The notes under the pieces were generated by a model that saw nothing but the letters and a program-made list of their open reading frames with translations, was not told the DNA's origin and did no database searches. The translations under genes and the position numbers were made by a program. Positions 3,026 to 6,597 of a DNA stretch of 64,000 nt are shown piece by piece. Every line of letters starts with the position of its first letter. Position 1 is the first letter of the stretch. Source of the stretch: a virus; IMG/VR virus record IMGVR_UViG_3300040801_000976, positions 1 through 64,000 of that record, one strand, 5' to 3'.

Positions 3026-3057
3026 TTTGGATATTTACAGGAAATGTAGTATATTTG
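3026..3057 (+). promoter_or_regulatory. Bacteroidota-type promoter for the homing endonuclease
   Basis: TATATTTG at 3050-3057 matches the -7 consensus TAnnTTTG. A TTTG-containing -33 element at 3026-3030 is spaced about 20 bases upstream. The start codon of the LAGLIDADG gene follows at 3085. This is the clearest host-sigma-type promoter seen in the window. Confidence 0.6.
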
Positions 3058-3084
3058 CAACTTATCCAAATAAATAATAACATT

Positions 3085-3504
3085 ATGAATATATCATATA
3101 TATCTGGATTTTTTGATGCTGATGGTTCTATAACTATGTGCCACAATTTAAAGAATGACAAATTTAAGACTATTAAAATAGATTTTACTAATATAGAATT
3201 AGAATTACTTAAATCCATACAATCTTATTTATTTGTAGAACATAATCTTAAGTTGTTTATATCTACAAAACCATCTAAAAGATCAGCACATTCTATTTCA
3301 TATAGTCTATCTTTATCAAGTAATCAAAAATGTATTACTTTATGTAAATTATTAAAGTCTAATCATCCAAAAAAATTACATAGAATAAATACTATAATTA
3401 AGTATCATGATAAAGTTACTAATAGAAATGGAAAATATACTGAACAACAAATTACGAGAAAGTTAGCTTATGAAAGGCTATTTTCCTCCACTAATTTTCA
3501 TTAG
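3085..3504 (+). CDS. Single-motif LAGLIDADG homing endonuclease
   Basis: 139 residues beginning MNISYISGFFDADGSITM. YISGFFDADGS is a LAGLIDADG helix with its catalytic acidic residue. Only one motif is present, so the protein would act as a homodimer like I-CreI. Basic, strand-rich segments follow, as expected for the DNA-binding saddle. The ATG at 3085 is chosen because the motif starts at residue 4. An upstream in-frame start at 3055 overlaps the promoter. The gene lies inside the group I intron but on the opposite strand, so it must be transcribed separately from its own promoter. It presumably cleaves the uninterrupted T-loop target. Confidence 0.8.
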   Translation: MNISYISGFFDADGSITMCHNLKNDKFKTIKIDFTNIELELLKSIQSYLFVEHNLKLFISTKPSKRSAHSISYSLSLSSNQKCITLCKLLKSNHPKKLHRINTIIKYHDKVTNRNGKYTEQQITRKLAYERLFSSTNFH

Positions 3505-3693
3505 TGATCGGACTATATTATCATCCGTTCTGGATGTCACTCGCTATGGACTTACCGTAGTATTCCTAGTCTCTGAACCTGCTTACTTCTTCCAGTAAGA
3601 TTGGCTGCTGATTGGCATAGATTTTTTCTTTAGCTTCCCAGCAATTCAAGTGATTTTTTCATTGTATATTCCTATACAAGCGACCCTTATTTA

Positions 3694-3834
3694 AGTCGAA
3701 CCCGAGTCCAAACAATTTCCAACCCATTATAAAACAACCATTCTTTAGTGGGTTTTTCGGGGTTTCTACACAAATAGAGATAAACCCTTGTCTCGTATTA
3801 TTTGTTTTGCAGCTCTCCTTAGAATGGTTGTAAA
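3694..3834 (-). ncRNA. tRNA/tmRNA-like 5' exon with pseudoknot-like structure
   Basis: Ends with GGACTCGGGTTCGACT, which resembles the 3' domain of tmRNA (GGACGCGGGTTC.ACT in E. coli). Upstream, ACAACCATTCT pairs perfectly with AGAATGGTTGT. AACCCA inside that helix pairs with TGGGTT outside it, making an H-type pseudoknot, and GGGTTT/AAACCC forms a hairpin. No ALAA-type tag frame was found. The best in-frame tag-like peptide after GCTGCA ends in LFV and is not convincing. It could be a divergent tmRNA, a tRNA with a second interruption, or another tRNA-like RNA. Confidence 0.45.
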
Positions 3835-3874
3835 ATAATCAAGGCTATGCCACCTTTAAATGTACATAATTACT

Positions 3875-3905
3875 ACGACAATGCAGGAATCGAACCTACC
3901 TTACA
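3875..3905 (-). ncRNA. tRNA T-arm and acceptor fragment
   Basis: GTAGG-TTCGATT-CCTGC forms a proper T-arm, followed by ATTGTCG as a 3' acceptor strand. The matching CGACAAT 5' strand and an anticodon arm that pairs with GGTCT were not found nearby. A D-arm-like stretch (GCTCATTTAGTTGAGAG) occurs at about 3970-3990, but its acceptor does not match. This is either a tRNA remnant or the 3' half of a tRNA with a large insertion. Confidence 0.4.
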
Positions 3906-4581
3906 GACCTTCTCTATGCCGTACCTTGATTAAAACTAAACAATCTATTCCAAAACTAACTATAACACCTATTCTCTCAACTAAATGAGCTTAATCTATC
4001 ACCAAGTTCTTATGTTTATGGTATAGGCTTTAGGATACTTTCAATAATTAGAACTCTTGTAGATTCATTAGAGTTTTTTTAAAACATGCTTTTGAAGAAA
4101 TATTCGGCATTCTGATGATTCTCATACAATAGTTAATATACCATATGTAATTCCTCAATTTATTCTTCAGCCAGTGATATTATCCAGCATATTTTCCGTT
4201 AGCTATAAAACTCTTGTTAGAGTACAACGATTGACTAACATGATCATTGTTTAAAATAAAAGATAATCTGACTTAACAGCATTTACCAGATTGTACGCTT
4301 CAGACATAGTGAATTATCAACTATGCTTGTAGTATCTTTTATTTATTTTAATTGAGTTGACAGCGCATACCTAATAATTATAGCATCGCAACCGTTTAGG
4401 ATGAGTATGTGCAATATGGCTCAATGTTAGTAATTAATAGTAATAAGTATTGGATAGACCACTTAACCCAACTTTTAACGTCCTTTTATGAACTTGTACT
4501 TCTTACCATTAAATTACCCTTGTAGGATATTTCCTACTGCGTTAATATTTAAGCTATCGCTGACGTGGTTTGATTTCACGT
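3906..4581. other. 676-base non-coding stretch, structured minus-strand RNA likely
   Basis: No credible gene. It holds a D-arm-like segment (about 3970-3990), the three-way-junction RNA at 4258-4340, and a further stem (GCACATAC with GTATGCGC, about 4362-4415). A GGACGTT heptamer at 4478-4484 could be the 5' acceptor strand of the interrupted tRNA-like RNA. The density of paired segments suggests an RNA gene cluster rather than spacer. Confidence 0.4.
4258..4340 (-). ncRNA. Three-way-junction RNA candidate
   Basis: Outer stem AAAAGATA/TATCTTTT (4333-4340 with 4258-4265) encloses two hairpins: CATAGT/ACTATG (4305-4310 with 4320-4325) and AATCTG/CAGATT (4265-4270 with 4287-4292). Junction strands do not match the hammerhead core or the purine riboswitch. 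Function unknown. Confidence 0.35.
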
Positions 4582-4767
4582 TTAATAAATATCAATTTCA
4601 GTTGCATCACAATCAGAAGTAAATCTTCCATTACCTCTGTAGTTTAATTCTTTTTTAAAGATACTAATCCATAACCCTCTTTCATAATCAGTATCAAACT
4701 TAATTCTATTATTTTCAATACAGTTTATTATGATAGAGTTCTTTAAAACTTGGTAAAGGGTTAACAT
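4582..4767 (-). CDS. 61-residue protein, unknown
   Basis: MLTLYQVLKNSIIINCIENNRIKFDTDYERGLW ... RFTSDCDATEIDIY. It overlaps the 3' end of the upstream gene (4715-5047) by 53 bases in another frame. That is long for a normal overlap, so it may start later from a non-ATG codon or be reached by a frameshift from the upstream gene. No family recognised. Confidence 0.4.
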   Translation of the reverse strand: MLTLYQVLKNSIIINCIENNRIKFDTDYERGLWISIFKKELNYRGNGRFTSDCDATEIDIY

Positions 4768-5047
4768 TGAATTTCTTTAATACTTTTGAAATAGTATTAT
4801 TTTCATCTTGAAATTCAATGGATGTGTAAAGATGCATACCATAATGCTCATTTTGAGTTGTTTTGCTTATAATAAACAAGTTGTTGATTTGTTCTTGGGT
4901 TAAATTATATTCATTAGGATATTCTTTACTATAAGCAGACTCTTTCATCAGTTTGTAATGGTCAGATAATGTTTCTAGTTGTTGTATATGCTCATAATTA
5001 TTATTTATCAATGAAATTAGTTCTAATTCTTTTATAAATGCTTTCAT
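4715..5047 (-). CDS. 110-residue helical protein downstream of a hammerhead ribozyme
   Basis: MKAFIKELELISLINNNYEHIQQLETLSDHY and so on, mostly helical, acidic and basic residues mixed, with a C-terminal VNPLPSFKELYHNKLY. Unknown family. The ATG at 5047 is the natural start because it follows the hammerhead cleavage site by 27 bases. Longer in-frame starts would lie inside the ribozyme. Cleavage would give this mRNA a defined 5' end and a short leader (AGGTATAAACAATT...). Confidence 0.5.
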   Translation of the reverse strand: MKAFIKELELISLINNNYEHIQQLETLSDHYKLMKESAYSKEYPNEYNLTQEQINNLFIISKTTQNEHYGMHLYTSIEFQDENNTISKVLKKFNVNPLPSFKELYHNKLY

Positions 5048-5068: not shown

Positions 5069-5165
5069 ATACCTGACTACTAAGTTTCTTTTACTATAGA
5101 TACACTTCATCGTGTAGAGCTACAAATCTTAGTAGTTTCGTCTATTAAAGACTCATCAGAGGTAT
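5069..5165 (-). ncRNA. Type I hammerhead ribozyme 1
   Basis: On the minus strand, stem I ATACCT (5165-5160) pairs with AGGTAT (5074-5069). The core CTGATGA is followed by stem II GTCT/AGAC and then GAAA. Stem III ACTACTAAG/CTTAGTAGT is 9 bp and capped by a long loop with its own hairpin (TACAC/GTGTA). The cleavage triplet GTC is followed by AGGTAT, so cleavage falls between 5075 and 5074. All core nucleotides fit the consensus. Open at stem I, so type I. Confidence 0.85.
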
Positions 5166-5222
5166 TTTAAAATAACCAACACCAATAGCTAATTGGAATG
5201 ATATTTATTGTCACCTGACACG
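5166..5222 (-). promoter_or_regulatory. Repeated hairpin leader element, copy 1
   Basis: Minus strand: GGTGACAATAAATATCATT, hairpin CCAAT-TAGCT-ATTGG, then TGTTGGTTATTTTAAAATA leading straight into hammerhead 1. Copy 2 at 6213-6273 keeps both flanks but has the hairpin CCGACTT-TAGC-AAGTTGG, so the stem changes while pairing is kept. Confidence 0.5.
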
Positions 5223-5741
5223 CTGGCTTTACAACTCACAGATTGTAGCCCTAAGAGCTAGAACATATCATCAATCTTCTAAATTACAGTAGCTAACTGT
5301 TTGAGTAATTCTAAGTACTTTTTACATTGTGCAACAACTTAGATTCTATTTCAATAATTACTCTATTTATTTGATTTGTTGGTTATTTATACTTTAAAAA
5401 CAAAGCTACTTTGAGAAATATTAATTGCTTCTACTTCCCTTTATTACCAAATATGGTCTACATTGATTCTCTTACTCCATAGCTTTTAAAGTAGTCATTC
5501 TTTATGGTTCAATCAGCAATAAAGGCAGGTTACAAGCCTGATAATTCACAATTAATATCAACCAACATTTTCTCTCAACTCTCCAGTTGATTTATGATAG
5601 TTATAATGCAATAACCGCTTAGAAATAAATTTCCGCGCTCTTATTATTTGAAAACTTGATTAGTAGCTTTGTTGTTATTTATTTTTATACTATAATAATG
5701 GTTTTGCTTGATGAATTAAATCATCGAATGTTTTAGAGAAT
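5223..5741. other. 519-base non-coding stretch with hairpins
   Basis: No credible gene. Hairpins visible on the minus strand include TACAA-TCTGTGAG-TTGTA (5230-5247), and an anticodon-arm-like CAGG-CTTGTAA-CCTG (5526-5540) that would read UGU but lacks D- and T-arms. TTTTTATACTATAATAATG at 5685-5700 resembles the late-promoter 13-mer but differs in several bases and faces away from the local genes. Confidence 0.35.
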
Positions 5742-6167
5742 TTATCTCTTAATTCTTGGGTTTTGAAAGTCAATACCCCCGAACAACCAGCCTCCTCCCC
5801 CAACCCTTTTTTTGTTATTATAAAAATAAATAATATATTTTATAGTACCATCTTCCCAATCAGGCTTCCAACCACCATTCCAAATATCTCTAAATTTAAT
5901 TAATTGCATTAAAGCTAAAAATGCTTCAGCGTATTCTATGGATGTTATTGTATTAATATCTATTCTTACATCTCCAATACATTCAATAATAGATCCATTT
6001 GAACTGGAATAATAACAAACCTCAGGTAAAAAAGGTAAACATTCTTCATTACTTAATACCAACGGTGTTTCTTTTTTCTTTTTAAAAGATATATTACCAT
6101 CAGATAAATTAGACTTATCTAAATCTATCCCCACACCATCAGATATTTCAAAATTTATGTGTTTCAT
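5742..6167 (-). CDS. 141-residue protein, unknown
   Basis: MKHINFEISDGVGIDLDKSNLSDGN, then a cysteine in NEECLPFLPEVCYYSSSNGS and a Trp-rich segment (FRDIWNGGWKPDWEDGTIKYIIYFYNNKK). The W-N-G-G-W-K-P-D-W pattern is seen in small phage proteins of unknown role that follow a predicted beta-sheet, but I cannot name a family. It is preceded by leader-element copy 2. The last residues VGGGGWLFGGIDFQNPRIKR are glycine-rich. Confidence 0.55.
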   Translation of the reverse strand: MKHINFEISDGVGIDLDKSNLSDGNISFKKKKETPLVLSNEECLPFLPEVCYYSSSNGSIIECIGDVRIDINTITSIEYAEAFLALMQLIKFRDIWNGGWKPDWEDGTIKYIIYFYNNKKRVGGGGWLFGGIDFQNPRIKR

Positions 6168-6212
6168 AATTAAGTTTTAAATTGTTTTAGTTAGATTATA
6201 GTTCTTTATATT

Positions 6213-6273
6213 TAAAAATAACCAACACCAACTTGCTAAAGTCGGAATGATATTAATTGTCATCTCACCTTAA
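6213..6273 (-). promoter_or_regulatory. Repeated hairpin leader element, copy 2
   Basis: Minus strand: AGATGACAATTAATATCATT, then hairpin CCGACTT-TAGC-AAGTTGG, then TGTTGGTTATTTTTAAATA. Same flanks as copy 1 (5166-5222) with a different but still paired stem. Here no ribozyme follows. The gene at 5742-6167 starts 46 bases downstream. Confidence 0.5.
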
Positions 6274-6279
6274 TATAAG

Positions 6280-6486
6280 TTAGCAACAAGGCTTAGATTC
6301 AATCATCTTTAATCGCTCTATCTCTTCTTTTAACCTTCTCATCTCATGCTCTATCTCTGTAATTAGCATCACTGAGCCACCTGTATATCCTTCAAGTAAA
6401 TTATCATACAAGTTTTTTATTGGAGTTTCCAACCTTTTAGAAATTACATCTAAATTTTTAAATTTATCCATGTTTTTAAACCGCAT
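6280..6486 (-). CDS. 68-residue coiled-coil protein downstream of hammerhead 2
   Basis: MRFKNMDKFKNLDVISKRLETPIKNLYDNL, then a coiled coil (EIEHEMRRLKEEIERLKMIES) and a terminal CC. The ATG at 6486 follows the predicted ribozyme cleavage site by 11 bases. A second ATG at 6471 is possible. Unknown function, possibly a small oligomeric regulator. Confidence 0.5.
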   Translation of the reverse strand: MRFKNMDKFKNLDVISKRLETPIKNLYDNLLEGYTGGSVMLITEIEHEMRRLKEEIERLKMIESKPCC

Positions 6487-6491
6487 TGTTT

Positions 6492-6597
6492 ATACCTAAC
6501 TACCAACCTTATTTCCCTATTTACTAAATAATCCATATGTTATTTAGTCAACTAGTTAGTAGTTTCGTCTTAATTTTCAAAGACTCATCAAAAGTAT
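6492..6597 (-). ncRNA. Type I hammerhead ribozyme 2 (variant core)
   Basis: Stem I ATACTT/AGGTAT (one G.U), core TTGATGA (C3 replaced by U), stem II GTCTT/AAGAC, GAAA, stem III ACTACTAAC/GTTGGTAGT with a long capped loop (ACTAAATAA/TTATTTAGT), cleavage triplet GTT before AGGTAT (between 6498 and 6497). It has the same architecture and downstream leader as copy 1. The C3U change could lower activity. Stem sequences differ from copy 1 but pair. Confidence 0.7.

Follow-up and report, generated by a model that had tools for sequence, protein, structure and literature searches.

The minus strand of this phage DNA carries, judging from its sequence, a complete type I hammerhead ribozyme (HHR) at positions 5165-5069, an assignment that we could confirm as an observation on core and stems. 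We give a probability of about 0.75 to a model in which this element (copy 1; 5069-5165) acts in cis within a leftward polycistronic transcript and trims the message of the 110-aa open reading frame (ORF) downstream of it (4715-5047, minus strand). Positions refer to the window, meaning the whole 64,000-nt stretch that was analyzed, which belongs to an IMG/VR virus record of 128,786 bp. Copy 1 is another example of the already known phage hammerheads near small genes. Unusual here are its 61-nt stem III region, a duplicate with a C3U change, neighboring predicted structured RNAs, and how often HHRs occur in Bacteroidetes podoviruses.

On the minus strand, copy 1 reads AUACCU-CUGAUGA-GUCUUUAAUAGAC-GAA-ACUACUAAG(N43)CUUAGUAGU-C^AGGUAU. 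Stem I pairs AUACCU (5165-5160) with AGGUAU (5074-5069; 6/6 paired), stem II pairs GUCU with AGAC (5152-5149/5143-5140; 4 bp), and stem III pairs ACUACUAAG with CUUAGUAGU (5136-5128/5084-5076; 9/9 paired), so that 19 of 19 base pairs form across the three helices. The core segments CUGAUGA (5159-5153) and GAA (5139-5137) agree with the HHR consensus (CUGANGA / GAA with A15.1-U16.1) at every nucleotide. The three helices (6/4/9 bp) surround this core, and stem I is an open helix, which defines the topology as type I. Moreover, the minimum-energy fold of 5172-5062 is exactly the hammerhead structure (z -2.6). The stem II hairpin, GUCUUUAAUAGAC, recurs identically in other viral HHRs (for example, L019 and L025). 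By comparison, the stem III region (5076-5136, minus strand; 61 nt) combines the 9-bp helix with a long insert that forms a hairpin of its own (UACAC/GUGUA); a stem III region longer than 43 nt occurs in only 4 of 119 other type I HHRs.

The position of the cut within a hammerhead is given by the chemistry of the motif. Copy 1 has a GUC cleavage triplet, in line with the NUH rule, and since U16.1 and C17 occupy 5076-5075, the predicted cut falls between 5075 and 5074, with C17 at 5075 and a new 5′-OH end at A5074. From there to the ATG at 5047 is 27 nt. Our ORF caller starts the downstream ORF at an ATG at 5110; this codon lies inside the ribozyme, which makes 5047, the start codon chosen in the earlier sequence-only reading, the sensible one. 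The ribozyme identity, topology, cut position and 27-nt spacing proposed in that reading all agree with the core, the stems and the minimum-energy fold.

As a control for chance matches, we searched 1262 simulated genomes of 128,786 bases each with the same dinucleotide content. A descriptor requiring stems of at least 5/4/5 bp found 0 matches in this set, and the loosest descriptor (4/3/4) found 12 altogether; copy 1 is not a chance match. We also built a covariance model from 20 aligned HHRs from IMG/VR with a fixed core pattern, taken from other phages only and with the window left out; this training set was picked for pairing, and its 100% pairing is by construction. In the 64-kb window, the top match of the model is copy 1 (33.3 bits, E 1.8e-6), the second is another element, copy 2 (20.5 bits, E 0.007), and the one after that has E 0.6. 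For both copies the match rests mostly on stem II and the core, which are well aligned; the model does not span the long stem III and misplaces the 3′ part. Rfam models at gathering thresholds reported no hammerhead in the window or the rest of the genome. Their best score for copy 1, 23.2 bits to Hammerhead_3 (RF00008; cutoff 48.5), came with the wrong topology and fell below threshold, mainly on account of the long stem III. The Rfam cutoff is a score criterion, not a structural feature, and the models are unsuited to a 61-nt stem III. Descriptors for type II and type III HHRs gave no matches in the genome, and a permissive descriptor asking for a minimal stem II recovered just the two copies.

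For 119 type I HHRs on viral and bacterial contigs, we next measured the distance from cut to start codon, counting an ATG only if it opens at least 40 codons. Random points in same-strand intergenic DNA served as the control, replacing an antisense control, which the co-orientation of phage genes makes unsuitable. An ATG follows at 15-50 nt in 65% of the HHRs versus 15% of the random points, and the median distance is 33 nt versus 87 nt. The distribution peaks at 20-45 nt, which offers a numerical rule: the cut usually falls 20-45 nt before a start codon. On the other side, 60 of the 109 HHRs with an upstream ORF lie at most 60 nt from its stop codon. This spacing, together with the stop-codon proximity, indicates that phage type I hammerheads typically occupy the space between two genes, so that the next message keeps a short leader. 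The sharp peak in these other HHRs and the 27 nt of copy 1 favor 5′-end processing of the downstream mRNA, lending weight to the earlier suggestion that cleavage would create the mRNA 5′ end. In the same sample, where the stem II region measures at most 14 nt, stem I is at least 6 bp long in 64 of 67 HHRs, compared with 15 of 52 where that region is longer; copy 1, with a 6-bp stem I and a 13-nt stem II region, belongs to the dominant coupled class. Contact between loop II and stem I is a known feature of type I hammerheads, and we read the length coupling as a trace of it.

Copy 2 (6492-6597, minus strand) repeats the layout of copy 1 before the next small ORF, on the same strand and 1423 nt away. 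All its stems are kept, and every stem difference from copy 1 preserves pairing: stem III shows a compensatory change (G-C to C-G), and the changes of C-G to U-G in stem I and U-A to U-G in stem III leave a wobble pair in place. Its stem II hairpin, GUCUUUGAAAAUUAAGAC, is of another type, one also seen commonly elsewhere, and H17 is U, giving a GUU triplet. The core departs from the consensus at C3, which is U, while G8 is unchanged. Scanning the viral collection, we found that 119 of 130 stretches with a C3 core are hammerheads; of 47 stretches with a U3 core, a weak hammerhead could be imposed on one. C3U is practically absent from phage HHRs, and natural U3 variants carry a compensating A8 (Perreault et al., PMC3088659). 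Given this rarity and the unchanged G8, copy 2 is probably crippled, either slow or dead. The ORF downstream (6280-6486, minus strand) encodes 68 aa from an ATG at 6486; an ATG at 6471 lies 26 nt past the copy 2 cut, close to the spacing in copy 1. A small ORF at 6791-6610 (minus strand; MDKNLWWGCKYVNGTY*AKRYFDRRDTDEAKESSF...) stops just before copy 2 and contains one in-frame TAG (6737-6735), for which amber readthrough, recoding, a pseudogene or an assembly error are alternatives.

Two same-strand HHRs around small phage ORFs (5069-5165 and 6492-6597) form the arrangement described for clustered phage hammerheads. The sequence-only reading had presented the repeated unit as the novelty; clusters flanking small phage genes were already published (PMC3088659, PMC6155905) and have been known since 2011 (Perreault et al., PMC3088659). 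Nor can the two units be treated as equal copies, since copy 2 carries C3U. In these publications, phage HHRs occur in clusters, flank small non-conserved genes and lie near start codons (PMC3088659; PMC6155905), as with HHphage of haloviruses HF1/HF2, located 13 nt before a helicase start codon (PMC3088659). The type I HHRs of phages and prophages from the 2011 study (PMC3088659) share with our elements the core, topology, GUC triplet, start-codon proximity and occurrence in several copies flanking small genes; here, in contrast, stem III spans 61 nt with an internal hairpin, copy 2 combines C3U with an unchanged G8, and the two copies have stem II hairpins of different types.

The terminase and portal of this virus match phrog_6681 and phrog_6547. 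By tblastn, the terminase finds crAss-like and Flavobacterium phages at roughly 24-30%, and the portal behaves likewise; these matches point to a Crassvirales-type podovirus without close kinship to any named one. Both families occur in 21 of 50 large hammerhead-bearing IMG/VR records, and the portal occurs in 0 of 33 other viral contigs, which are shorter. The portal from one hammerhead-bearing record matches phages of Flavobacterium, Cellulophaga and other Flavobacteriia. Our searches place predicted HHRs in many podoviruses of Bacteroidetes, among them Crassvirales and the cultured Flavobacterium elemo phages.

Flavobacterium phage vB_FspP_elemoE_6-9C carries an HHR (NC_055854 16299-16366, minus strand) in a region common to 68 phage records, and its cut lies 28 nt before the start of gp66, a layout in a cultured relative that supports 5′-end processing. 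It shares with copy 1 the type I topology, the UUUAAUA stem II hairpin loop and a related portal and terminase type, but has a short stem III, was found as a single copy and neighbors non-homologous genes. Antisense over this hammerhead lies a small annotated ORF, gp65 (NC_055854; L244 1490-1597), which is probably a mis-annotation. CrAssphage cr131_1 (NC_055902), of the same order Crassvirales, contains three unannotated HHRs (L246 1362-1406 and 2028-2114, L245 414-479) around tRNA genes, small ORFs and a non-coding stretch. One of them has a 54-nt stem III region, and the stem II hairpin of copy 2 recurs in one; unlike our copies, two precede tRNAs rather than small ORFs. Since these HHRs also precede tRNA genes and a non-coding stretch, mRNA 5′-end formation is not the sole use of such elements. 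A relative (IMGVR 3300033146_001588; terminase ~62% identical) likewise has an HHR in its minus-strand early gene cluster, directly after a stop codon (L135 4618-4566, minus strand; Rfam 27.0 bits, E 0.027). This HHR differs in its type II topology and its gene neighbors, and also in a possible loop I/3′-tail pseudoknot, in which 5′-AAGC of loop I can pair with the tail GCUU.

Two structured RNAs are predicted upstream of copy 1 on the minus strand: one at 5170-5388, with a perfect 12-bp closing stem (AAAUAACCAACA/UGUUGGUUAUUU; z -3.0), and one at 5395-5677 (closing stem ACAAAGCUACU/AGUAGCUUUGU; z -2.5). A search for homologues of these RNAs found none; relative G004 matches the upstream structured RNA over 66 nt, antisense in an ORF and in AT-rich sequence, and we did not count this as conservation. 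A repeated element, present at 5165-5219 upstream of copy 1 and at 6209-6268 (both minus strand), consists of G-UGACAAUWAAUAUCAUUCC, a hairpin and GGUGUUGGUUAUUUU. Its two copies lie upstream of two genes, the second before an ORF at 5742-6167 without a ribozyme, so only one precedes a hammerhead. The hairpin arms differ between the copies yet pair in each (CCAAU/AUUGG and CCGACUU/AAGUUGG).

In the 5′-end processing model, we infer that a minus-strand polycistronic RNA of the Crassvirales-type podovirus carries copy 1, which would fold during synthesis and cut itself between 5075 and 5074. The upstream piece would retain the ribozyme and a 2′,3′-cyclic phosphate, and the downstream piece would be the message for the 110-aa ORF, with a 5′-OH and a leader of 27 nt, unstructured and rich in A/U. 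The probable advantage would be punctuation, splitting the small gene's message from the structured RNA upstream, together with a 5′ end that lacks the phosphate promoting 5′-end-dependent decay; the gain may be one of stability or of translation. Besides the low Rfam score and the cr131_1 HHRs that precede tRNA genes and a non-coding stretch, these observations count against this model: the downstream ORF has no detectable relatives (homologue searches with the 110-aa, 68-aa and 138-aa proteins found none), and no close homologue of the copy 1 ribozyme was found, with IMG/VR searches for close DNA homologues of the ribozyme or the repeated upstream element giving none or two matches, judged to be at about chance level.

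The main product of cleavage could instead be the upstream RNA, if the cut defines where a structured non-coding RNA (5170-5677) has its 3′ end. We consider this unlikely, although it draws on the two predicted domains, each closed by a strong stem, that immediately precede copy 1, on the cr131_1 HHRs that punctuate a cluster of tRNAs and small ORFs, and on theta ribozymes, reported beside phage tRNAs and proposed to act at tRNA ends (PMC10879173). These HDV-like ribozymes of gut phages are likewise small self-cleaving RNAs that process phage transcripts, but have an unrelated fold and are located at tRNA ends (PMC10879173). Against an upstream product, copy 2 comes after a protein-coding ORF rather than a structured RNA, the upstream RNAs have no homologues that we could find, and the spacing rule derived from HHRs in general implicates the start codon downstream. 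Somewhat less probable still is that the ribozyme is a relic, which arrived on a duplicated or imported segment and has ceased to matter, copy 2 already being in decay. The C3U change, the lack of conservation of either downstream ORF and the absence of the ribozyme from sampled relatives would fit such decay; the perfect core and fully paired stems of copy 1, and stem differences between the copies that all keep pairing, would not.

Two further readings are more doubtful. The long stem III insert, shared by both copies and one cr131_1 HHR, might conceivably act as a sensor in which binding of a ligand, protein or RNA switches cleavage; if so, this would be a natural regulated hammerhead controlling early phage genes. 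Least probable of all, and very much so, is that the tandem HHRs free and circularize the intervening 1.4-kb RNA as in retrozymes or viroid-like RNAs. Two HHRs on the same strand 1423 nt apart invite this idea, but retrozymes and viroid-like RNAs have an active HHR pair bounding a repeat unit, whereas here copy 2 has the C3U core almost never seen in phage HHRs and the interval is a row of ordinary ORFs. Moreover, a search by Perreault et al. for circular or spliced RNAs arising from tandem phage HHRs was negative (PMC3088659).

The role of hammerheads in phages is still called an open question (PMC6155905). The presence of HHRs in the cultured Flavobacterium elemo phages makes this role testable in a plaque-forming laboratory phage.

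Downstream of the 110-aa ORF, the minus strand at 3489-3703 contains a group I intron core (Rfam 90.5 bits), adjoined by an ORF for a LAGLIDADG homing endonuclease (3055-3504, plus strand). Between the intron core and the 110-aa ORF, at 3700-4715 (minus strand), lies ~1 kb that shows no clear ORF or Rfam match and is predicted to be densely structured; near 3890, AAUCAAGG/CCUUGAUU enclose a tRNA-like T-loop (GGUUCGAUUCC). This region is possibly a large structured phage RNA.
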